A stretch of DNA of 40,928 nucleotides from Saprospiraceae bacterium (GTDB lineage: Bacteria; Bacteroidota; Bacteroidia; Chitinophagales; Saprospiraceae), in assembly GCA_029263015.1 (NCBI GenBank), contig JAJCYI010000114.1, positions 1 through 40,928 on the forward strand. Reading direction: 5' to 3'. This document shows, one piece after another, positions 1,503-40,814 of the stretch (within the stretch, counting starts at the first letter, position 1; every line of letters starts with the position of its first letter). The position numbers and the translations under genes are program-made. The notes beneath the pieces are model-generated. The model was not told where the DNA came from and did no database searches. It was given only the letters and a program-made list of their open reading frames with translations.

Positions 1503-4325
1503 ATGCCCGAAGAAAAAAAACTCTTTCTCCTCGATGGCCACGCGCTCGTGTACCGCGCCCATTTTGCCTTCATCACCCGCCCACTCATTAATTCAAAAGG
1601 CTGGAACACTAGTGCCATTACTGGTTTTGTACGAACGATTTATGACCTGATCAAAAACCAAAAACCGACCCACCTGGCAGTCTCGTTCGACCTCCCGGGC
1701 GGTACCTTCAGGGACGAAATGTACCCCGAATACAAAGCCAACCGAGAGGCACAGCCAGAAGATATCAGCTTTGCCCTGCCCTGGATCATGAAAATATTGG
1801 AAGCCTGGAAAATCCCGATCCTTACTTTGCAAAACTACGAGGCAGACGATGTCATCGGCACCATTGCCAAAAAAGCAGAGAAGCATGGTTATAAAGTTTA
1901 CATGGTGACACCTGACAAGGATTACGGCCAGTTGGTAAGTGAAAATATTTTCATGTACAAGCCTGGGCGAAAAGGTGGAGAAGCGGAAGTGTTGGGCGTC
2001 AAAGAAATTTGCCACGTCTGGGGCATAAAAAATGTGGATCAAGTGATTGATATGCTTGGCTTGCAAGGTGATTCCGTTGACAATATTCCCGGTGTGCCGG
2101 GCATTGGCCCCAAAACAGCGGCCAAACTCTTGGCAGAGTTCGACTCTATGGAAAACCTGCTCGAAAATACTGACAAAATAAAAGGCAAAAACCAGGAGCG
2201 CCTCATCGAAAACAGTGAACAAGCTCTTCTCTCCAAACAATTAGCTACAATCGATATCAACGCCCCAATTGAGTTTGTCGAAAGCCAGTACAATTTGGAT
2301 CCATTTGACCGGGACAAACTTTCCGAACTATTTAAAGAGCTGGAATTCAGGGCATTGGCTACACAAATATTAGGAGAAGACAACTCGCAATCGGGGACTA
2401 CTATCCAAGTCGGCCCAGTTGCGGGTACGCAAGGTTCACTATTTGGGAATGTCTCCGAACGCGCTCCTGTGAAACGCGCCGCACCACCCTTGCCCTCTCA
2501 TTCTGTCGCTGAAAAAACGATTGAAAACACACCACACGAATACCATCTTACAGATACCCCTGAAAAACGGGCAGACTTGATAGCCCTGCTCTCCAAGCAA
2601 AAAAGTATCTGTTTTGATACCGAAACGACTGGGGTCGATGCCAATATCGCTGAAATGGTCGGGATTTCCTTTTCCATAAAACCACACGAGGGGTGGTATG
2701 TGCCCGTGCCTGCCGACTCAAATGATGCACAAGAAGTAATTGATGAATTCAAGCCCATTTTCGAAAATGAAAACATCGGAAAAATAGCCCAAAACATCAA
2801 ATACGACGCGCTCATGCTGAAATGGTACGACGTGGAACTAAAAGGTCAATGGTTCGATACGATGATAGCCCATTACTTGCTCGAACCAGAACTACGACAC
2901 GGCATGGATTACTTGTCCGAAACCTATTTGAAATACAAACCCGTTTCCATAGAAACCCTGATCGGCAAAGGAGCAAAGCAACTGAGTATGCGGGATATTC
3001 GAGTAGAACGGGTAGCAGAATATGCGGCGGAAGACACAGATGTGACATTTCAACTACGGGACTATTTTGCCCCAAAACTAAAAGAAGAAGGCTTGGAGGA
3101 ACTGTATGAAACAATGGAAAATCCATTGACAAGAGTCCTTGTCGATTTAGAATATGAGGGCATCAACCTGAACAGTAAATACCTTCAGGACTATTCAGTT
3201 GAATTGGGGCAACAAATCAGTGATTTCGAAAAAAGGATACATGTTGAAGCAGGCATAGTGTTCAACATCGCATCACCCAGCCAAGTAGGGGAGGTTTTAT
3301 TTGGCAAAATGCAAATTCCCTACCGATGGCGGAAAACCAAAACGGGGAAGTATTCAACCGATGAATCCAAACTGACGGAACTGGCTGGCAAATACCCGTT
3401 CGTGGCCGATATCCTCAAACACCGTGGCCTGTCAAAACTAAAATCTACCTATGTGGATGCCCTGCCCTTGCAGGTCAATCCTAAAACTGGACGCGTACAT
3501 AGTTCTTTTAACCAGGCATTAGCTGCTACGGGCCGACTCTCTTCCAACAACCCCAACCTGCAAAATATTCCGATAAAAACGGAGGAAGGACGAAAAGTAC
3601 GGGAAGCATTCATTCCGCGTGATAAGGGCCACGTTCTGCTCGCTGCTGATTACTCTCAGGTTGAACTTCGACTGATCGCAGAAATGAGCAATGACGAGGC
3701 CATGCTCGAAGCTTTCCAAAAAGGACAGGACATTCACCGCGCGACGGCAGCAAAGGTGTATGGCACGGCTTACAACGAGGTGACCAGTGACCAGCGGCGC
3801 AATGCCAAAACCGTTAACTTCTCCATCATCTATGGTGCAGGGGCTACTAATGTTTCTCAGCAACTCAATATAAAACGTGCTGTGGCAAAGGAACTGATCA
3901 ATACCTATTTCCAACAATACCAGGGTTTGAAAAACTACATGGAAGAAACCGTGAATTTTGCACGTGAAAATGGCTTTGTAAAGACGCTACTTGGTCGTCG
4001 TCGATACCTGCGTGACATTGATAGCCGTAACGGCCTTTCCCGCAGCAATGCTGAACGGATTGCCATCAATACACCAATACAGGGTACGGCTGCCGATCTC
4101 ATCAAAATTGCCATGATAAACATCCATAAGGCGCTGAAGGAAAATAACTTAAAAACAAAAATGATCCTTCAGGTACATGATGAACTGGTATTTGATGTAC
4201 CAAAAAATGAATTGGAAAAAGTGAAGCCGATTATTGAGGATTTGATGAAAAATGCGATCCCTGATTTGGAAGTGCCGATATTGGTGGAGATGGGAGTTGG
4301 GGATAATTGGCTGGAGGCGCATTGA
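1503..4325 (+). CDS. polA: DNA polymerase I
   Basis: Family A DNA polymerase of 940 residues, acting in Okazaki-fragment maturation and excision repair. An N-terminal 5'-3' exonuclease domain (about 1-290) opens with LFLLDGHALVYRAHFAF and holds GLQGDSVDNIPGVPGIGPKT. A 3'-5' exonuclease domain follows (about 345-540) with intact DTE at 372-374 and YAAEDTDVTFQL, so proofreading is probably active. The polymerase domain carries motif A DYSQVELR (716-723), motif B RRNAKTVNFSIIYG (765-778, Lys769) and motif C QVHDE (890-894). Length fits a full three-domain enzyme. The ATG at 1503 is the first start and gives the expected N-terminus. It is preceded by about 200 bp of non-coding DNA and followed 53 bp later by xisH on the same strand. 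Confidence 0.97.
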   Translation: MPEEKKLFLLDGHALVYRAHFAFITRPLINSKGWNTSAITGFVRTIYDLIKNQKPTHLAVSFDLPGGTFRDEMYPEYKANREAQPEDISFALPWIMKILEAWKIPILTLQNYEADDVIGTIAKKAEKHGYKVYMVTPDKDYGQLVSENIFMYKPGRKGGEAEVLGVKEICHVWGIKNVDQVIDMLGLQGDSVDNIPGVPGIGPKTAAKLLAEFDSMENLLENTDKIKGKNQERLIENSEQALLSKQLATIDINAPIEFVESQYNLDPFDRDKLSELFKELEFRALATQILGEDNSQSGTTIQVGPVAGTQGSLFGNVSERAPVKRAAPPLPSHSVAEKTIENTPHEYHLTDTPEKRADLIALLSKQKSICFDTETTGVDANIAEMVGISFSIKPHEGWYVPVPADSNDAQEVIDEFKPIFENENIGKIAQNIKYDALMLKWYDVELKGQWFDTMIAHYLLEPELRHGMDYLSETYLKYKPVSIETLIGKGAKQLSMRDIRVERVAEYAAEDTDVTFQLRDYFAPKLKEEGLEELYETMENPLTRVLVDLEYEGINLNSKYLQDYSVELGQQISDFEKRIHVEAGIVFNIASPSQVGEVLFGKMQIPYRWRKTKTGKYSTDESKLTELAGKYPFVADILKHRGLSKLKSTYVDALPLQVNPKTGRVHSSFNQALAATGRLSSNNPNLQNIPIKTEEGRKVREAFIPRDKGHVLLAADYSQVELRLIAEMSNDEAMLEAFQKGQDIHRATAAKVYGTAYNEVTSDQRRNAKTVNFSIIYGAGATNVSQQLNIKRAVAKELINTYFQQYQGLKNYMEETVNFARENGFVKTLLGRRRYLRDIDSRNGLSRSNAERIAINTPIQGTAADLIKIAMINIHKALKENNLKTKMILQVHDELVFDVPKNELEKVKPIIEDLMKNAIPDLEVPILVEMGVGDNWLEAH

Positions 4326-4378
4326 TTAAAGCAATCTTTTGTTTAAATTTGGCAAACTTTCTCAAGAGGACACACCAA

Positions 4379-4795
4379 ATGGCCAAAGACTTTTACCACG
4401 AAACAGTTAAACAAGCATTAATAAATGATGGCTGGGCCATAACCAATGATCCATTGACATTGTTATCAAAAGAAGAAGGGGGATTAGAAACAGATTTGGG
4501 AGCAGAGAAATTTATTGCAGCGGAAAAAGGTCTAAAAAAAATTGGTGTCGAAGTCAAAAGTTTTATCCAGCCTTCCATTATGTACGATTTTCACCAAGCC
4601 GCGGGACAATACATTTTGTACTTATCTGCGCTTGAGATCAAAAAGAGTGAAAGGGTTATGTACGTGGCCATACCCGATGAGATTTATTATCGCTTAATCA
4701 AGAAAGAGGTGATTGTTCATGCAATCGAAAAATTGTCAATGAAAATCATTCTTTATAATCCAGTTGCAACTCAAATAATATCATGGAAAGAATAG
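4379..4795 (+). CDS. xisH: XisH family protein, predicted PD-(D/E)XK nuclease fold
   Basis: A 138-residue protein starting MAKDFYHETVKQAL. The family is named for a factor needed with XisF and XisI for excision of the fdxN element in Anabaena heterocysts. Homologues are widespread where no such element exists, and their job there is unknown. The central part reads GGLETDLGAEKFIAAEK then IGVEVKSF. The spaced Asp/Glu and the E-x-K match a PD-(D/E)XK nuclease-like core; this is inference from the motif. The ATG at 4379 was chosen over an upstream start overlapping polA because homology begins here. Its end overlaps the start of xisI by 13 bp, so the two are probably translationally coupled. No recombinase lies nearby. 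Confidence 0.88.
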   Translation: MAKDFYHETVKQALINDGWAITNDPLTLLSKEEGGLETDLGAEKFIAAEKGLKKIGVEVKSFIQPSIMYDFHQAAGQYILYLSALEIKKSERVMYVAIPDEIYYRLIKKEVIVHAIEKLSMKIILYNPVATQIISWKE

Positions 4796-32727: not shown

Positions 32728-32759
32728 TTGCTTTTTCCTGAAAAATCCCCCTATTTTTG
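32728..32759 (+). promoter_or_regulatory. Promoter of the trp operon
   Basis: TTG at 32728-32730, 21 bp, then TATTTTTG at 32752-32759, an exact match to the Bacteroidota -7 consensus TAnnTTTG with good spacing. Transcription would begin near 32766, about 13 bp before the leader-peptide start, which suits an attenuated operon. Confidence 0.6.
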
Positions 32760-32778
32760 CCACATCAAAATTAATTCA

Positions 32779-32850
32779 ATGCACAATTTCAATCAAATCA
32801 ATTGGTGGTGGCAAATTTCTGAAGCAGACCTGCAACGGAAACTTGCCTGA
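32779..32850 (+). CDS. trpL: trp operon leader peptide
   Basis: A 23-codon frame starting MHNFNQINWWWQ and ending QRKLA with a TGA at 32848-32850. Codons 9-11 (32803-32811) are three consecutive Trp codons, far beyond chance for such a short frame and directly upstream of a trp operon. In attenuation control a ribosome stalls at these codons when charged tRNA-Trp is scarce, and leader RNA then folds into the antiterminator. Placement fits: a stalled ribosome leaves 32832 onward free, while one that reaches the stop codon covers it. The frame lies between the promoter and the terminator. It is too short for routine gene finding. Function is inferred from architecture; the sequence facts are direct. 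Confidence 0.85.
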   Translation: MHNFNQINWWWQISEADLQRKLA

Positions 32851-32895
32851 TTGGTATGATTAATTTTATACAATACAAAAAAGGCCCGTCGTTGC
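32832..32895 (+). promoter_or_regulatory. Antiterminator structure of the trp leader
   Basis: GCAACG at 32832-32837 can pair with CGTTGC at 32890-32895, and GCCT at 32845-32848 with AGGC at 32882-32885, joined by an internal loop. This uses the left arm and loop of the terminator, so the two structures exclude each other. GGCAA at 32810-32814, overlapping the last Trp codon, can pair with TTGCC at 32843-32847 as a possible protector hairpin. Confidence 0.65.
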
Positions 32896-32910
32896 GACGG
32901 GCCTTTTTTT
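32877..32910 (+). terminator. Attenuator (intrinsic terminator) upstream of trpE
   Basis: GC-rich stem GGCCCGTCG (32883-32891) with CGACGGGCC (32895-32903), 3-nt loop TTG, extended by six A-T pairs and followed by seven T (32904-32910). It is a textbook Rho-independent terminator placed 82 bp before the trpE start rather than at an operon end, which marks it as an attenuator. Confidence 0.9.
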
Positions 32911-32991
32911 GTTTTTGGTTTAACGGTTTATTCGTCTATCGGTAACCAAACCTTTACACCAAAAAACCAACACACCTTTACACCAAAAAGA

Positions 32992-34419
32992 ATGATCGAA
33001 TTAACGGTTATAGAAAAAACATTGCTCGCCGACACCGTCACCCCGGTAAGCCTTTATTTGCGCCTGCGTGATCGGTATCCGGGCTCATTGTTGTTGGAAA
33101 GTTCAGATTATCACGGCAAGGAAAATGCGCTTTCGTTCATCTGCTTTGATCCGATAGCAAGTATTACTTTGGGAAATGGAAAGTTGGAAACCCAGCTGCC
33201 GGACCAATTACCAGAGCAAAAACCGATTGCGAAAAAAGAATTGGTCTTTGATGAACTGGATGCTTTTTTTAATAATTTCAAAATAGTAAAATCGCAAAGT
33301 TCAAGAGCCAAAAAACTCAACGGGTTTTTCGGCTATGCAGCTTTCGATGCCATCACCCATTTTGAAAACATCGAACTAAAAAACTCCACCGCAGCCAACC
33401 GCAACATCCCTGAACTCTGCTATAAACTCTTCCGCTTCATCCTCTGCATCAACCATTTTACTAATCAAATGACCCTGTTGGAAAACCTGCCTGTCGGACA
33501 GGCAGGCCTGCCGCAAGATGAAAGAAGCCAAATGGAAGAGGCTGAAACACTTATCGCTGCGCCCGTTTTTCCGAGTTTCCATTTCCGTAAAACAGGAGAG
33601 GAGCAGACTAATATGAGTGATGAAGAATACATGGAAATGGTCAGCAAAGGAAAAGAGCATTGCCAGCGTGGTGATGTGTTCCAGGTTGTTTTGGCAAGGC
33701 AATTTTCACAGGCTTTTGTTGGCGACGAGTTCAATGTTTACAGGGCTTTACGATCAGTCAACCCATCACCCTATTTATTCTATTTCGATTTTGGGGCGTT
33801 CCGGATTTTTGGCTCGTCGCCAGAAGCACAGATACAGGTACAGGGCAACACCGCCATCATCAACCCCATCGCCGGAACCGTTGCCCGCACGGGCGACGAC
33901 CTTGCCGACAAGGCCGCAGCCGAGAGCCTGCTTGCCGATCCAAAGGAAAACGCCGAGCACGTAATGTTAGTCGATCTTGCCCGCAACGACCTCAGCCGTC
34001 TGGCAAAAAACGTGCAGGTGAAAACCTATAAGGAGGTACAGTATTTCAGCCACGTCATCCACCTCGTTTCCGCGGTGGAAGGTACATTGCCGAAAGGCAC
34101 TTCACGGAGCCGTTTGATGGGCGAGACATTCCCCGCTGGCACGCTCAGTGGTGCCCCCAAGTACCGGGCGTTGCAACTCATTGACGAGATCGAACCCAGC
34201 GCCCGTGGATTCTATGGTGGCTGCGTTGGATTCTTCAATTTCGACGGTGAAATGAACCATGCCATCTTGATCCGCTCCTTTCTCAGCAAACAGAACCGCC
34301 TCCACTATCAAGCTGGGGCGGGGATTGTGAAATATTCAAAAGAGGAATCAGAATGTCAGGAGGTTTTCAATAAAATTGGGGCGCTGCGGAAGGCAATGGG
34401 TGTTGCAGAAAAATTGTAG
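32992..34419 (+). CDS. trpE: Anthranilate synthase component I
   Basis: 475 residues. Converts chorismate plus ammonia (from TrpG) to anthranilate, the committed step of Trp synthesis. The Trp feedback-binding motif LLLESS is at 33-38. The chorismate-binding domain (about 200-470) has RGDVFQVVLARQFSQ, PSPYLFYFDFGAFRIFGSSP, PIAGTVARTG, HVMLVDLARNDLSRL, GTLSGAPKYRALQLIDEIEP, and GFYGGCVGFFNFDGEMNHAI. Residues about 166-174 (LPVGQAGLP), between the two domains, are encoded by a perfect DNA palindrome and look like an in-frame insertion. It is the first structural gene of the operon, 82 bp after the attenuator, with a 123-bp gap to trpG. Two direct copies of CCTTTACACCAAAAA (32951, 32975) precede the start. 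Confidence 0.96.
   Translation: MIELTVIEKTLLADTVTPVSLYLRLRDRYPGSLLLESSDYHGKENALSFICFDPIASITLGNGKLETQLPDQLPEQKPIAKKELVFDELDAFFNNFKIVKSQSSRAKKLNGFFGYAAFDAITHFENIELKNSTAANRNIPELCYKLFRFILCINHFTNQMTLLENLPVGQAGLPQDERSQMEEAETLIAAPVFPSFHFRKTGEEQTNMSDEEYMEMVSKGKEHCQRGDVFQVVLARQFSQAFVGDEFNVYRALRSVNPSPYLFYFDFGAFRIFGSSPEAQIQVQGNTAIINPIAGTVARTGDDLADKAAAESLLADPKENAEHVMLVDLARNDLSRLAKNVQVKTYKEVQYFSHVIHLVSAVEGTLPKGTSRSRLMGETFPAGTLSGAPKYRALQLIDEIEPSARGFYGGCVGFFNFDGEMNHAILIRSFLSKQNRLHYQAGAGIVKYSKEESECQEVFNKIGALRKAMGVAEKL
33486..33512. repeat. Short palindromic element in frame within trpE
   Basis: CCTGCCTGTC and GACAGGCAGG (33486-33495, 33497-33506) are exact reverse complements around one base. The overlapping GGCAGGCCTGCC (33501-33512) is a second perfect palindrome. 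It encodes PVGQAGL in a linker between TrpE domains. It is much more GC-rich than its surroundings, as expected of an inserted mobile palindrome. Confidence 0.8.
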
Positions 34420-34542: not shown

Positions 34543-35109
34543 ATGAAAATATTAGTCCTCGACAATTACGACTCTTTTACCTACAACCTCGTTCACTATT
34601 TGGAGGAGATCACAGGGACGCCGCCCGATGTCTTCCGCAACGACCAGATCACTGTAGAAGAGGTAAGTACGTATGACAAAATATTGCTCTCTCCCGGCCC
34701 CGGCCTACCGAATGAAGCAGGCATTTTGTGTGACCTCATCAAGGCACACGCAGCTGAGAAAAGTATCCTCGGTATCTGTCTCGGTCTGCAAGCCATCGGC
34801 GAAGTGTTCGGTGCCAAATTGGAGAACCTTGATCGTGTTTTCCATGGAGTGGCCACTCCCATAAAAGTAGTCGATGAAAAAGAGCAGTTATTTGCTGGCC
34901 TGCCCGAAAGCTTTGAAGTGGGCCGATACCACTCATGGGTCGTTTCCAATATTGATCTGCCCGATTGTTTTGATAAAACAGCGGTGGATGAAAATGGGCA
35001 GATCATGGGATTGACACATAAATTATATGATGTACGCGGAGTCCAGTTTCACCCCGAATCAATTATGACGGAACATGGGATGGATCTACTGCGGAATTGG
35101 GTGCTTTGA
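34543..35109 (+). CDS. trpG: Anthranilate synthase component II (glutamine amidotransferase)
   Basis: 188 residues. Hydrolyses glutamine and passes ammonia to TrpE. Class I amidotransferase motifs: ILVLDNYDSFTYNLVHYL at the start, LLSPGPGLPNEAG (oxyanion region), nucleophile Cys79 in ILGICLGLQAIGE, and catalytic His and Glu in VQFHPESIMT. RYHSWVV is typical of TrpG/PabA. PabA-type use for folate synthesis is possible in some bacteria with a single gene, but the operon points to Trp. It follows trpE by 123 bp and precedes trpD by 61 bp. Confidence 0.96.
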   Translation: MKILVLDNYDSFTYNLVHYLEEITGTPPDVFRNDQITVEEVSTYDKILLSPGPGLPNEAGILCDLIKAHAAEKSILGICLGLQAIGEVFGAKLENLDRVFHGVATPIKVVDEKEQLFAGLPESFEVGRYHSWVVSNIDLPDCFDKTAVDENGQIMGLTHKLYDVRGVQFHPESIMTEHGMDLLRNWVL

Positions 35110-35113
35110 GGTG

Positions 35114-35158
35114 ACGCCTTTGCGCAGAATGAGCGGGGAGAAAGGCGTTGTCTCCGCT
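35114..35158 (+). repeat. Overlapping hairpins in the trpG-trpD gap
   Basis: ACGCCTTT (35114-35121) pairs with AAAGGCGT (35141-35148). AGCGGGGAGA (35132-35141) can pair, with a small bulge, with TCTCCGCT (35151-35158). The two share position 35141 and interlock, so they could be alternative folds just before the trpD start. Confidence 0.45.
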
Positions 35159-35170
35159 AAAAAATGAAAA

Positions 35171-36160
35171 ATGAAAATAATACTAAACCATCTATTTGAG
35201 CACCGAAAACTTACCCGGGAAGAATCCAGGGAAGTACTCACGAATATAGCTAACGGTGCTTACAATGAATCGCAGATCGCTGCATTCCTCACAGTTTATC
35301 TCATGCGGAGCATCTCCGTGGAAGAATTGGCTGGCTTTCGGGAAGCACTACTCGACCTTTGTATCAAAGTAGATTTAGATGGCACTCCCGCGATTGATTT
35401 ATGTGGGACAGGTGGCGATGGGAAAAATACTTTTAACATCAGCACCTTGGCCAGTTTTGTGGCGGCAGGAGCTGGGGCAAAAGTTGCCAAGCACGGCAAT
35501 TATGGCGTATCTTCCGTATGTGGTTCATCGAATGTAATGGAAAAATTAGGTTATACATTTAAAAACGACCCAGATCAATTGCGGCAAGAACTAGACAAGT
35601 CCGGCATCTGCTTTTTGCATGCACCGCTGTTCCATCCTGCCATGAAAAATGTAGCCCCAGTTCGCCGTGCCCTGGGCATCAAGACCTTTTTCAATATGCT
35701 CGGGCCGCTGGTCAATCCTGCTTTTCCCTCTGCACAATTCACGGGCGTTTTTAGCTTGGAATTGGGACGCATTTACCGATATCTCCTGCAAGAGACCGAC
35801 CGCAAATTTACGGTCGTACATACCCTTGGTGGTTACGACGAGGTTTCCCTCACCGACCGGGCGGCCCACCTCTCCAACGATGGCGAGGGCATGTTGACCC
35901 CTGCTGATTTTGGCGGAGCGGTGGAGCCGCAGGCTATTTACGGTGGCGATACAGTGGAAGAAGCTTCGAAATTGTTTACCCAAATTTTGAGCGGAAACGG
36001 TACGGAATCGCAAAACCGGGTGGTCGTTGCCAATGCGGCACTGGCCTTGCAGACCTATGGTGTAGCAGAATCACTGGAGGACTGCATCGCCACTGCTGAG
36101 GAGTCACTGGTGTCAGGAAAAGCAATGGGCGTTTTGAAGAAATTAATCAGTTTGAATTAA
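35171..36160 (+). CDS. trpD: Anthranilate phosphoribosyltransferase
   Basis: 329 residues. Transfers the phosphoribosyl group of PRPP to anthranilate. The PRPP-binding glycine-rich loop is DLCGTGGDGKNTFNISTLA, followed by KVAKHGNYGVSSVCGSSNV. Also typical are FLHAPLFHPAMKNVAPVRR, LGIKTFFNMLGPLVNPAF, and VVHTLGGYDEVSLT. The ATG at 35171 (MKIILNHLFEHRKLTREES) gives normal length; another ATG (35164-35166) is out of frame. It is the third enzyme gene of the operon. A 107-bp gap filled by an imperfect inverted repeat separates it from trpC. Confidence 0.96.
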   Translation: MKIILNHLFEHRKLTREESREVLTNIANGAYNESQIAAFLTVYLMRSISVEELAGFREALLDLCIKVDLDGTPAIDLCGTGGDGKNTFNISTLASFVAAGAGAKVAKHGNYGVSSVCGSSNVMEKLGYTFKNDPDQLRQELDKSGICFLHAPLFHPAMKNVAPVRRALGIKTFFNMLGPLVNPAFPSAQFTGVFSLELGRIYRYLLQETDRKFTVVHTLGGYDEVSLTDRAAHLSNDGEGMLTPADFGGAVEPQAIYGGDTVEEASKLFTQILSGNGTESQNRVVVANAALALQTYGVAESLEDCIATAEESLVSGKAMGVLKKLISLN

Positions 36161-36162
36161 TG

Positions 36163-36251
36163 ATTCATTGTTTCATTGCCGCATGGTTTCATTGTCCAGC
36201 CATCACGCATTGGGTTAAACAATGAAGCAATGATTCCATGAAACAATGAAA
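36163..36251. repeat. Imperfect inverted repeat filling the trpD-trpC gap
   Basis: About 33-nt arms (36163-36195 and 36219-36251) pair at roughly 26 positions. They are built from variants of TTTCATTG and CAATGAAA. It starts right after the trpD stop and ends shortly before trpC, so it occupies nearly the whole gap. Confidence 0.6.
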
Positions 36252-36267
36252 CCGGAACAATAAAACA

Positions 36268-37080
36268 ATGCAAATTTTAGAAAAAATAGTCGCACACAAA
36301 CGAAAAGAAGTTGCCGAGCGCAAGTCTCTCTACCCGACCGATTTGCTCGAGCGTAGCTTGTTTTTTGAAACGGAATGTGTCTCGATGGTGAAATATTTAA
36401 AGGATGAAAATAAGTCCGGCGTCATCGCAGAATTTAAACGGCGATCGCCATCGAAAGGGGACATTAATAAATATGCTTCGGTGGAACAAGTGACCATCGG
36501 TTATATGCAAGCAGGTGCTTCGGCTCTCTCTGTGCTAACGGACACACAGTTTTTTGGTGGCACGAGTGCCGACCTCAGCGAGGCCCGCAAATTCAACTAC
36601 TGTCCTATCCTTAGGAAAGATTTTACGATTGATGAATACCAAATTATTGAGGCCAAGTCCATCGGTGCAGATGCTATTTTACTGATCGCAGCCTGCCTGT
36701 CGCCACAGGAGGTCAAGCAAATGAGTGGGGTCGCCAAATCGCTAGGCTTGCAGGTTTTATTAGAAATACATGATGAAACCGAGTTCGACCGCTTTTGTGA
36801 AAATATAGATATGGTTGGTGTAAATAATCGGGATTTAAAAACATTTAAAACCTCAATTGAAAATTCACATAATTTATTGGCGCTTTTACCAAATATCGTT
36901 GCAAAAATATCGGAGAGCGGCATCAACGACCCAAAAGATGCGGCGGGTTTGTTGCAGGCGGGTTTTGATGGATTGTTGATCGGGGAGTCGTTTATGAAGA
37001 ATAGCCAACCAGGCATGGCGTGCTCGGAGTTTGTGTCAGAGGTGGAAAGGATTAGAAAGCTTGACTACTCGACCCACTAA
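36268..37080 (+). CDS. trpC: Indole-3-glycerol phosphate synthase
   Basis: 270 residues, a (beta/alpha)8 barrel closing the ring of CdRP to indole-3-glycerol phosphate. Signatures: ILEKIVAHKRKEVAERK (N-terminal helix), VIAEFKRRSPSKGDIN with the catalytic Glu and Lys, ALSVLTDTQFFGGT, PILRKDFTIDEYQIIEAK, VGVNNRDLKTF, and ISESGINDP near the phosphate site. It is separate from trpF, whereas they are fused in E. coli. trpF follows after 16 bp. Confidence 0.96.
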   Translation: MQILEKIVAHKRKEVAERKSLYPTDLLERSLFFETECVSMVKYLKDENKSGVIAEFKRRSPSKGDINKYASVEQVTIGYMQAGASALSVLTDTQFFGGTSADLSEARKFNYCPILRKDFTIDEYQIIEAKSIGADAILLIAACLSPQEVKQMSGVAKSLGLQVLLEIHDETEFDRFCENIDMVGVNNRDLKTFKTSIENSHNLLALLPNIVAKISESGINDPKDAAGLLQAGFDGLLIGESFMKNSQPGMACSEFVSEVERIRKLDYSTH

Positions 37081-37096
37081 AGTTTAAAATAAAATC

Positions 37097-37747
37097 ATGT
37101 ACCTAAAAATTTGTGGCCTCCGCCAAACTGATAATATAAAGTTGCTGCTCCCATTGCTGCCTGATTATCTCGGTTTTATTTTTTATAAAAATTCAAAAAG
37201 ACATGCCGAAGGGATATTAGAAAAGGATTTTATTAAAAATGAAAAGAGTATAAAAAAAACGGGTGTATTCGTCAATGAAAAATTAGAAACAATAAAAGCC
37301 ATTATTGAAAAATATGGACTGGATGCAGTACAGTTGCACGGAGATGAAACGCCGGAATATTGCCAACAATTGAAGAATGTATATTTGGGAAGCAACTTAA
37401 AGCTGCCTCCCAAATTAGAATTAATAAAAATATTTTCTGTCAACGACAATTTTGATTTTAATAAAACTAAAAAATACGAAGATGTTTGCGACCTTTTTTT
37501 ATTCGACACCAAAGGCACAGAACGGGGCGGCAACGGCATTGCCTTTAATTGGGAGGTTTTAAAAAAATACAATGGTGAAAGACCGTTTTTTCTCAGCGGC
37601 GGAATTAGTCAAGAAGATACAGCGGAAATAAAAAAAATAAACCATCCAAAATTATATGGTGTGGATATTAATAGTCGCTTTGAAATTGAGCCTGGATTAA
37701 AAAATGTGGAGGCGGTGAAATATTTTATCGATGAATTAAGAAGCTAA
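37097..37747 (+). CDS. trpF: Phosphoribosylanthranilate isomerase
   Basis: 216 residues, a (beta/alpha)8 barrel isomerising PRA to CdRP. The catalytic Cys is in [12 protein letters not shown] (Cys7), and the catalytic Asp is in [20 protein letters not shown]. Other family parts are [45 protein letters not shown], and [12 protein letters not shown]. It is visibly richer in A and T at third positions than trpB, its neighbour. It ends two bases before trpB, so coupling is likely. Confidence 0.95.
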
Positions 37748-37749
37748 AT

Positions 37750-38937
37750 ATGAAAACAGAAAAAATAGCAATAGACAAACGCGGCTACTACGGCGAATTC
37801 GGGGGCGCTTATGTTCCCGAAATGCTCCATGCTAATGTTAAGGAATTGCAGGACTGCTACCTCGAGGTACTCGCTGACCCAGCATTTCAAAAAGAATTCC
37901 GCTCCCTGCTGAAAAATTATGTCGGACGCCCCACGCCGCTTTATTTTGCGAAACGGCTTTCTGCAAAATACGACACGCAAATCTACCTAAAACGGGAAGA
38001 CCTCTGCCACACCGGCGCCCATAAAATCAACAACACCATTGGACAGATATTGCTGGCGCAAAGACTCGGGAAAAAGCGCATCATTGCCGAAACTGGTGCA
38101 GGGCAGCACGGCGTCGCCACGGCAACAGTCTGCGCGCTGATGGGACTGGAATGCATCGTTTACATGGGCAAGCTCGACATCGAACGGCAAGCCCCCAATG
38201 TAGCCCGCATGAAAATGTTGGGTGCAACGGTTGTCCCTGCACTTAGCGGCAACATGACCCTCAAGGATGCCACCAACGAGGCCATAAGAGATTGGTTGTC
38301 AAACCCTTCGGATACTCATTACATCATCGGCTCGGTAGTTGGACCGCATCCGTATCCCGACTTAGTGGCGAAGTTACAGGCAGTCATCAGCGAAGAAATA
38401 CTTGAACAGCTCCCAGAACAAACGGGCAGAAAATTGCCTGATGCGGTGATGGCATGTGTCGGCGGGGGCAGCAATGCAGCGGGGGCCTTTTATCATTTTA
38501 TCAACGAACCTTCTGTGCAGCTGATCGCTGCGGAAGCGGCTGGCCTTGGTGTCCATAGTGGCGAAACAGCGGCGACCATCGCCCTCGGCAAACCGGGAGT
38601 GCTCCACGGCAGCCGTTCCTATTTGATCCAAACGGATGACGGGCAGGTAGTCGAGCCATACTCCATTTCTGCGGGTTTGGACTATCCTGGTGTCGGCCCC
38701 TTGCATGCTCATTTGGCAGCGACTAAGCGGGCAAAGTATTTTCCCGTGACAGATGAAGAAGCCCTGAAGGCTGTGGTGGAATTGTCGAGACTGGAAGGGA
38801 TTATTCCGGCACTGGAAACGGCACATGCATTGGCTCTTTTAAGGGAAATAAAATTCAAAAAAGAAGAAATCGTGGTGATCTGTTTGTCGGGAAGAGGGGA
38901 TAAGGATTTGGAAACATATATGAAATATTTGATGTGA
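37750..38937 (+). CDS. trpB: Tryptophan synthase beta chain
   Basis: 395 residues. PLP enzyme condensing indole and serine. The PLP lysine is Lys92 in [14 protein letters not shown]. Other signatures are [14 protein letters not shown] at the start, [20 protein letters not shown], the phosphate-binding [10 protein letters not shown], and [14 protein letters not shown]. Length and motifs fit TrpB1. It is more GC-rich than trpF and trpA on either side. It starts two bases after trpF and lies 33 bp before trpA, the expected alpha-beta complex pair. Confidence 0.97.
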
Positions 38938-38970
38938 ATATAATTTGGAACCACCTAACATTTTGAAACC

Positions 38971-39732
38971 ATGAATAGATTAGACAATTTATTTTCACAC
39001 AAAAAGAAGGACACCCTCGCCATTTATTTCACAGCAGGCTTCCCTAAATTAAATGACACCCGTCGCATCCTCCTCGAACTGGATGCTGCTGGGACGGATA
39101 TAATAGAAATCGGCATGCCTTTTTCCGATCCATTAGCGGATGGTTCTACTATTCAGGCAAGTAGCCAAAAAGCATTGGGAAATGGGATGAGTTTGAAATT
39201 ATTATTTGAACAATTAAAAGACATTCGGCAGGAAACCGAAATTCCTATAGTATTAATGGGATATATAAATCCAGTAATGGTTTTTGGCGTGGAAGCATTT
39301 TGTAAAAAATGCCAGGAAATTGGAATAGATGGATTGATATTGCCAGACCTGCCATTGTGGGAATTTAATAATAATTATAAATCTATTTTTGAAAAATATG
39401 GGATCCACGCCATTTTTCTTGTGACGCCACAAACCTCCGATGAGCGAGTTCGGATATTGGACGCAGCAAGCAGTGGGTTTTTATATGCCGTTTCCGTTTC
39501 CACAACGACGGGGAGTTCTGGGAGATTTAATAAAGAACAGGAATCTTATTTTAAACGGCTCTCTAATTTAAAGTTAAACAATCCCATCCTTGTCGGTTTT
39601 GGAATTGCCGAGTCGAAAAATTTTAAAATTGCTAATAAATATTTAAACGGTGGGGTTGTGGGCAGTGCTTTTATTCGAGCAATAGAAAAAGAAGAAAGTG
39701 TGGATGGCTTCATAAAGAGCTTAAGAGGCTAA
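38971..39732 (+). CDS. trpA: Tryptophan synthase alpha chain
   Basis: 253 residues, a barrel that cleaves indole-3-glycerol phosphate and channels indole to TrpB. The catalytic pair is Glu46 and Asp57 in DIIEIGMPFSDPLADGST, spaced as in E. coli. Also seen are IVLMGYINPVMVFGVEAF, GLILPDLPLWE, LYAVSVSTTTGSSG, and LVGFGIAESKNF near the phosphate site. It starts LDNLFSHKKKDTLAIYFTAG. It is the last trp gene; a perfect 29-bp hairpin follows six bases after the stop. Confidence 0.96.
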   Translation: MNRLDNLFSHKKKDTLAIYFTAGFPKLNDTRRILLELDAAGTDIIEIGMPFSDPLADGSTIQASSQKALGNGMSLKLLFEQLKDIRQETEIPIVLMGYINPVMVFGVEAFCKKCQEIGIDGLILPDLPLWEFNNNYKSIFEKYGIHAIFLVTPQTSDERVRILDAASSGFLYAVSVSTTTGSSGRFNKEQESYFKRLSNLKLNNPILVGFGIAESKNFKIANKYLNGGVVGSAFIRAIEKEESVDGFIKSLRG

Positions 39733-39812: not shown

Positions 39813-40814
39813 ATGATTATTCAATTAGAAAAAAACATCAGCAGCGACTTAAAAAATAAAGTGCTGCAAAATATACACGAGGTTGGTTATAAGACGATGG
39901 AAGTGTCCACCCAATTTTCCAATTATTTGGTGAGCGTAGGGAAAAAGGAATTTGACATCCGTAAAATAGGAAACTTACCAGGCGTTCGGGATGTCCACCG
40001 CGTGAGCGATGCATATAAATTGGTGTCCAGGAAATGGAAAGTTCATTCCACAGAAATTGATTTAGGCGATGGTGTAAAGATATTCCGAGGCGGTATGGCT
40101 ATGATGGCCGGGCCTTGTTCTATCGAGGGTGAAGAACAAGTGGAAAAAATGGTCAACCACCTTGTTAAAAATAATATTAAAATAATGCGGGGCGGCGTAT
40201 ATAAACCGCGGAGTTCCCCCTATTCTTTTCGAGGCCTGGGAATGGATGGATTAAAAATGTGGCACAGTGCCTGTCGGGCACATGGCATTAAAATAATCAC
40301 CGAAGTAATGGATGCCGAACAGATAGAGGCGATGTACGATTATGTGGATATATATCAGGTGGGTGCGAGGAATGCGCAAAATTTCACGTTGCTCGATGGT
40401 TTGGGAAAAATAGATAAACCTGTTTTATTAAAACGGGGCATGTCGGGCACATTAGACGAATTGCTGCAAGCCGCTGAATATGTTTTTTCCAACGGTAATG
40501 AAAAAATAATTTTATGTGAACGGGGTATCCGAACGTATGAAAAAGCTTACCGCAATACTTTGGATTTAAATGCCATTCCTATATTAAAAGACAAAACCCA
40601 TTTACCTGTGGTCGTTGATCCATCGCATGGCATTGGCCTGCGAAAATATGTGGAAGCTATGGCATTGTCAGGCGTGGTGGCAGGAGCAGACGGGTTGCTG
40701 GTAGAAGTACACCATGAGCCAGAGAAAGCAGCTTCTGACGGGCAGCAGACTTTGGATTTTGCGGAAGCGGAGCGTTTATATTTGAAAGTAAAAACAGCGA
40801 TGCAACTTCGATAA
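39813..40814 (+). CDS. aroF: DAHP synthase, type I-beta, with N-terminal ferredoxin-like regulatory domain
   Basis: 333 residues. Condenses PEP and erythrose 4-phosphate to DAHP, the first step of the shikimate pathway feeding chorismate to TrpE. An N-terminal ferredoxin-like domain (about 1-70) precedes the barrel and is the feedback-sensing part in related I-beta enzymes. Catalytic parts: metal Cys102 in MMAGPCSIEG, PEP-binding Lys131 in GGVYKPRSSPYSFRG, IITEVMDAEQIEAM, QVGARNAQNF, LLKRGMSGTLDE, ILCERGIRTYE, and the metal site VVDPSHGIG. There is no chorismate-mutase domain, unlike some Bacteroidota fusions. It follows trpA by 80 bp with a hairpin between. Its last codons lie in the fold-back palindrome at the window end, but the frame up to the stop reads normally. 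Confidence 0.94.
   Translation: MIIQLEKNISSDLKNKVLQNIHEVGYKTMEVSTQFSNYLVSVGKKEFDIRKIGNLPGVRDVHRVSDAYKLVSRKWKVHSTEIDLGDGVKIFRGGMAMMAGPCSIEGEEQVEKMVNHLVKNNIKIMRGGVYKPRSSPYSFRGLGMDGLKMWHSACRAHGIKIITEVMDAEQIEAMYDYVDIYQVGARNAQNFTLLDGLGKIDKPVLLKRGMSGTLDELLQAAEYVFSNGNEKIILCERGIRTYEKAYRNTLDLNAIPILKDKTHLPVVVDPSHGIGLRKYVEAMALSGVVAGADGLLVEVHHEPEKAASDGQQTLDFAEAERLYLKVKTAMQLR

Follow-up and report, generated by a model that had tools for sequence, protein, structure and literature searches.

A probable ribosome-mediated tryptophan attenuator upstream of the trp operon of a Saprospiraceae bacterium, with similar leaders in other Bacteroidota

The window, that is the whole 40.9-kb stretch of DNA that was analysed (40,928 nucleotides), harbours a complete trpEGDCFBA operon downstream of a leader region, with every gene on the same strand. 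The best NCBIfam match of trpE was TIGR00564, under that model's cut-off, and trpF was likewise assigned by best matches under cut-off, while trpG, trpD, trpC, trpB and trpA each exceeded the cut-off of a model. Downstream of trpA, in the same orientation, comes a DAHP synthase gene (NF006421, window positions 39813-40814) that may be co-regulated with the trp genes. In the interior of trpE, a near-perfect palindrome of 21 bases (33486-33506), whose exact sequence occurs once in the bacterium's own genome, lies at a site where the window's TrpE has six residues (PVGQAG) that are absent from three of the four aligned relatives. The features of the locus are the following.

32728..32759, plus strand: predicted promoter, TTG (32728-32730), 21 nt, then TATTTTTG (32752-32759), by sequence match to the Bacteroidota TTG / TAnnTTTG type
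32779..32850, plus strand: leader peptide ORF of 23 codons, MHNFNQINWWWQISEADLQRKLA, with ATG at 32779 and stop codon at 32848-32850
32803..32811, plus strand: three tandem Trp codons (TGG x3), predicted stall site, from the sequence and recurrence in relatives
32831..32848, plus strand: antiterminator strand (strand 2) of the predicted fold, made of 32831-32838 and 32845-32848 and overlapping the last codons of the leader
32877..32909, plus strand: intrinsic terminator hairpin of 15 pairs with a 3-base loop, then a T-run, from the terminator scan
32882..32896, plus strand: strand 3, comprising terminator left arm, loop and first right-arm bases, common to antiterminator and terminator, from the terminator scan and predicted fold
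32992..34419, plus strand: trpE, first structural gene
34543..39732, plus strand: trpG, trpD, trpC, trpF, trpB and trpA, in that order, by profile matches

An earlier note on this DNA had described a 23-codon leader peptide with three consecutive Trp codons at 32803-32811, and both are found in the sequence; nowhere else in the window, whichever of the six frames is read, do three Trp codons follow one another. The strong intrinsic hairpin placed by that note at 32877-32910 was recovered with its end at 32909 in the scan, and its two-part antiterminator (32832-32848 with 32882-32895) agrees with the predicted fold (32831-32848 with 32882-32896), in which, as read off the printed structure, 32831-32838 pairs with 32889-32896 and 32845-32848 with 32882-32885. 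A promoter is also present where it had been announced, with the consensus of the Bacteroidota sigma factor (TAnnTTTG) and not that of sigma-70; a sigma-70 promoter was rejected, the corresponding scan having found no site at that position. Taken as a whole, the segment 32770-32916 has a better predicted fold than every one of 200 dinucleotide shuffles (z -5.0). Counts of TGGTGGTGG in the bacterium's own genome (104 forward and 101 reverse, with 71 and 60 for the reversed pattern) were discarded as uninformative without reading frames.

Relatives were located through TrpE, and 179 trpE upstream regions of up to about 500 bases each were scanned, those of L112 and L137 being shortened by contig ends. 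Three sets of genomes contributed. In the first, TrpE was matched in 58 of 60 genomes at E 0.001, many merely at the level of related enzymes, and the best 30 places were used as loci, leaving out the next one (G011, a partial match at 7.4e-114). The family set gave matches in 103 of 130 genomes at E 1e-100, all of which were used. The phylum set gave 170 matches among 198 genomes at E 1e-60: all 45 that were related at class level or closer were taken, and 25 of the 125 from outside the class were hand-picked to span families, the other 100 being left out. Mini-ORFs were counted when they had at most 45 codons and at least two consecutive Trp codons.

A conserved Trp-rich mini-ORF upstream of the trpE of relatives, which the earlier note had put forward as a check on its reading, was observed in 160 of the 179 regions, and in three of 179 on the reverse strand. 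Runs of three or more Trp codons were present in 137 of the 179 regions, and the next best residue triple, Leu, reached 26. By taxonomy, the mini-ORF was found in 145 of 154 regions inside the window's class and in 15 of 25 outside it. Among the 19 regions that had no WW mini-ORF under the strict rule, six (L037, L059, L061, L125, L130 and L182) have a W-x-W mini-ORF near trpE under looser criteria, and one (L137) comprises 154 bases of upstream DNA only. Some of the 160 leaders are doubtful, such as L010, with WW only, a far upstream position (-348) and a poor antiterminator (z +0.8). A further set of named genomes, which overlaps the 179 (L196 corresponds to L007) and in which at least L246 and L273 look doubtful, gave two or more consecutive Trp codons at 64 of 80 loci, three or more at 50 of 80 and none of 80 on the reverse strand.

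The arrangement varies in some genomes. Trp-run mini-ORFs are seen at both -328 and -178 upstream of the single trpE of L138, and at -409, -297 and -156 from that of L135; such series may perhaps be tandem attenuators. Leaders also lie unusually far from trpE in L002 (-404), L095 (-355) and L045 (-295), perhaps through insertions between terminator and gene.

A terminator-like hairpin was found in all 160 leaders, scoring over 25 in 158 of them and in none of 160 shuffles (one per leader). Its left arm begins a median of 59 nt after the last Trp codon (51-73 nt from the 5th to the 95th percentile, n=160). Covarying pairs, another check named in the earlier note, were sought by a structure-blind mutual-information scan limited to gap-free columns. 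In both larger gap-free classes, of 41 and 34 leaders, the top ten pairs were terminator pairs, with 85-100% standard pairing and several standard pair types each, and in a third class of 17 leaders the top six were terminator pairs as well. The terminator thus shows many compensatory pairs. In the window, Phe_leader and Thr_leader of Rfam gave minus-strand matches; these lie under their cut-offs, rely on the symmetry of the terminator and were rejected.

This hairpin could be thought merely to insulate trpE from upstream transcription, next to a Trp-rich ORF present by chance, since it is strong, nearly symmetrical and fits the terminator pattern on both strands. Such an explanation is highly improbable given the excess of Trp-run mini-ORFs over the opposite strand, the nearly fixed distance between Trp runs and terminator, and the matching of strand 2 to its own terminator arm that is described below. 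The short distance from terminator to trpE, tens of bases with a median of 54.5, would suit a leader that acts on trpE translation or on Rho-dependent termination rather than on intrinsic termination; the presence of a terminator-like hairpin with a T-rich tail in every one of the 160 leaders makes this very unlikely.

The antiterminator was not recovered by fixed-column mutual information in the gap-free classes of leaders, whereas the terminator was; in our opinion, this is because loop length and register vary between leaders. A MAFFT alignment of eight same-genus leaders could not be used for pair counting either, as the antiterminator seems out of register between two sub-groups. Support for the pairing came instead from partner swapping. 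For each leader, the sequence downstream of the Trp codons was paired with a segment made up of the left arm of the terminator, its loop and three initial right-arm bases, and the best duplex was taken. Over the 160 leaders, strand 2 and strand 3 reached a mean of -16.8 kcal/mol with their own partner and -12.0 kcal/mol when partners were swapped; 2000 partner permutations gave a mean of -12.0, a standard deviation of 0.22 and a lowest mean of -12.8 kcal/mol. Control segments showed little of this, with -8.0 own and -7.4 swapped upstream of the leader (159 leaders), and -7.6 own and -7.3 swapped downstream of the terminator (160 leaders). The test should be conservative because close relatives are among the swap partners. 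At the level of single leaders the test discriminates less well: the own partner outdid 90% of swapped terminator arms in 83 of 160 and 90% of swapped strands 2 in 70 of 160, and the shuffle z was under -1.645 in 111 of 160. The window's own duplex has a z of -1.8; 2% and 10% of the swaps do as well or better. Pair types along strand 2 are varied, in a table drawn from each leader's own predicted duplex that is no test alone. In the predicted folds, the antiterminator shares the left arm of the terminator, so that the two structures would be mutually exclusive.

Both folds were also computed with the ribosome at different positions. For the stalled state, the mask covered the RNA as far as 10 nt downstream of the Trp codons, in a transcript that had not yet reached strand 4; for a ribosome at the stop codon, the mask extended to 11 nt past it; strand 3 was called as pairing upstream when the mean probability exceeded 0.5. 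With the ribosome at the Trp codons this held in 139 of 160 leaders, and with the ribosome at the stop codon in 5 of 160, mostly the behaviour that the model in the earlier note requires. Under a stricter joint criterion (over 0.5 stalled and under 0.2 at stop) 85 of 160 leaders remained. The window gave 0.57 stalled and 0.03 at stop; the corresponding values for E. coli trpL, treated alike but with its arm set by hand, were 0.62 and 0.21. Once strand 4 is present, the terminator exceeds 0.5 at equilibrium in 149 of 160 leaders, even in the stalled state. Since the finished terminator wins at equilibrium, antitermination would have to depend on timing, which is the kinetic argument of the classical model. 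When no ribosome was placed, strand 3 paired upstream above 0.5 in 72 of 160 leaders; the window value was 0.57, equal to that of the stalled state, and the E. coli value 0.16. A protector (1:2) hairpin appears in the minimum-energy fold of the window, whereas these mixed pair probabilities lend it no clear support.

Anatomy, conservation including the spacing to the terminator, matched pairing and fold behaviour together support the attenuator interpretation that the earlier note had given. We put at about 0.93 the probability that the leader is a ribosome-mediated transcription attenuator of the trp operon, a reading in which we infer the stalling, the coupling of ribosome and polymerase, the read-through and the response to Trp. 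RNA polymerase would start near 32764 and a ribosome would begin the leader at 32779. When charged tRNA-Trp is scarce, the ribosome would stall on the Trp codons at 32803-32811 with a footprint that should end before 32831. Strand 2 (32831-32848), left exposed, would then capture strand 3 (32882-32896) on its emergence, ahead of the synthesis of strand 4, and polymerase would continue into trpE. When Trp is plentiful, the ribosome would run on to the stop codon. This codon (32848-32850) and the end of strand 2 overlap, and the ribosome would cover that strand; strand 3 would then pair with strand 4 and transcription would end after 32909. Most likely, the trp genes are in this manner switched on only when tryptophan runs short.

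T-box, TRAP-like protein and repressor sensors govern trp genes elsewhere, and one of them might in principle act on the same terminator. This is most improbable here, as the Rfam search of the window gave nothing at or over a family cut-off, the leader region has no T-box among its 58 weak matches, and sensors of these kinds leave the Trp mini-ORF unexplained. Among the weak matches of the window, two concern tryptophan leaders. RF00513, Trp_leader, reached 25.2 bits for a gathering cut-off of 41. RF01692 gave a full-length alignment of 35.6 bits (E 0.015, from a search of 401 bases against all families) and stayed under its gathering cut-off of 49.

The earlier note had been unsure how well attenuation is described in this lineage, and to this there is an answer, as a trp leader of Bacteroidota was published in 2010 and is entered in Rfam as RF01692. 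A table of Weinberg et al. 2010 lists it as Bacteroid-trp, from Bacteroidetes (PMC2864571), and its Rfam title is 'Bacteroidete tryptophan peptide leader RNA'. Such an RNA was noted upstream of trp in F. psychrophilum and likened to that of E. coli in a passage of PMC6414381, and strong clues to leader-peptide attenuation upstream of amino acid operons of the same species are mentioned in PMC9723704. In the study PMC3766115, only His, Trp, Thr and Leu leader models were applied.

The window element resembles RF01692 by phylum and by its place upstream of trp genes, and the AUG, the UGGuGGUG stretch and the A-run/GGC terminator arm of the model align to the window over all 131 positions. The model differs in that it stops in the terminator left arm and is hence without a complete terminator. 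A search of the bacterium's own genome with RF01692 gave no match at E 0.001 under stricter filters, which lose weak matches. Under the same filters, which also lose weak matches there, six of 298 family genomes were over the cut-off and 16 matched at E 0.001. In 20 relatives (L094-L113, part of the 179), five matched at E up to 1 and none reached the cut-off. In one relative over the cut-off, G032 (contig C217, minus strand), RF01692 lies over its cut-off at 4548-4675, just upstream of trpE at 3109-4455, and the leader MILNTNWWWLQKTKILGTS (L023) was found there. The window element works like the RF01692 element and is very probably the same thing diverged, although the curated score is not reached.

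With E. coli trpL the window shares tandem Trp codons, an antiterminator, an intrinsic terminator and a similar fold behaviour under masked ribosome positions. Strand 2 has its first paired base 14 nt beyond the last Trp codon in E. coli trpL (K-12) and a median of 18 nt beyond it here, with 5 to 22 nt between the 5th and 95th percentiles of the 160 leaders and 114 of 160 within 14-21. The stop codon is placed differently. In E. coli it ends before strand 2 is reached, at 12 nt from the last Trp codon, whereas here it ends at a median of 30 nt and lies beyond the point where pairing in strand 2 begins by a median of 11 nt (2 to 32, 5th to 95th percentile, 160 leaders). The ribosome would thus translate into or across strand 2, where in E. 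coli only its footprint covers it, and the resemblance of leader C-termini inside subgroups (...RFRE or ...RVR, for example) is probably a consequence of the RNA pairing. The promoter is different as well, and few leaders carry a Shine-Dalgarno-like motif ahead of the start codon: one of GGAG, GAGG and AGGA was found in 9 of 160 only.

Sinorhizobium meliloti trpL is a Trp leader peptide attenuator too. In that Alphaproteobacterium, a trans-acting attenuator RNA and peptide have been described, and the trpL RNA begins with the ATG of trpL, as stated in PMC7298713. An RNA starting at the leader ATG is predicted here for part of the relatives, while for the window a 5' UTR of 15 nt is predicted.

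These predictions derive from the promoter boxes. Within -250 to +200 of leader starts, 85 of 105 TAnnTTTG boxes end within 60 nt before the start, and 84 of 160 leaders have such a box within 110 nt before the Trp codons. From the end of the box to the first in-frame ATG, the distance in these 84 is 4-8 nt in 30 (for instance L021, L024, L041, L094 and L165-L168), 16-22 nt in 38 and elsewhere in 14, with no in-frame ATG in two; taking whichever ATG comes first downstream of the box biases the distances towards short values, and a further in-frame ATG exists in 6 of the 30. In the named-genome set, 9 of 21 measurable distances were 5-7 nt, including four Tenacibaculum genomes. The promoter box of F. 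psychrophilum sits at -12 to -5 (PMC9723704), so that distances of 4-8 nt would correspond to a 5' UTR of 0-4 nt, and the 19 nt of the window to its predicted 15 nt, with a start that we infer near 32764. Judged by box position, leader transcripts appear to be leaderless or nearly so in 30 of the 84 relatives with a recognisable box.

Leaderless mRNAs are given as 5.5% in F. psychrophilum (PMC9723704), and about 3.7% of the mRNAs of B. thetaiotaomicron are listed with a 5' UTR under 10 nt (PMC7366714). A prediction study, which by its own statement detects Pribnow-box promoters only, found leaderless genes in one of 37 Bacteroidetes/Chlorobi genomes (PMC3160421). Against the 5.5%, 30 of 84 has a binomial probability of 5e-17, in a calculation that treats as independent leaders which are not, covers just those in which a box could be recognised and uses predicted starts only.

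The attenuator design itself is already known and its close relatives are common in Bacteroidota. Whether the leaders described here make up a distinct, phylum-wide Bacteroidota trp attenuator form is evenly balanced in our judgement. Such a form would be mostly missed by the Rfam model and would have a largely coding antiterminator strand, with C-terminal residues set by RNA pairing. In roughly one in three of the leaders whose box could be recognised, the ORF would lie at or within a few bases of the transcript 5' end, though leaderless mRNAs are reported to be rare in the phylum. By this survey, ribosome-mediated trp attenuators seem to be frequent among the sampled Bacteroidota that have TrpE, although within the family the curated RNA model reports the element in few genomes. 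Finally, Shine-Dalgarno-like sequences are nearly absent upstream of these leaders, which makes the leaders a natural probe of how tightly translation and transcription are coupled in this phylum.
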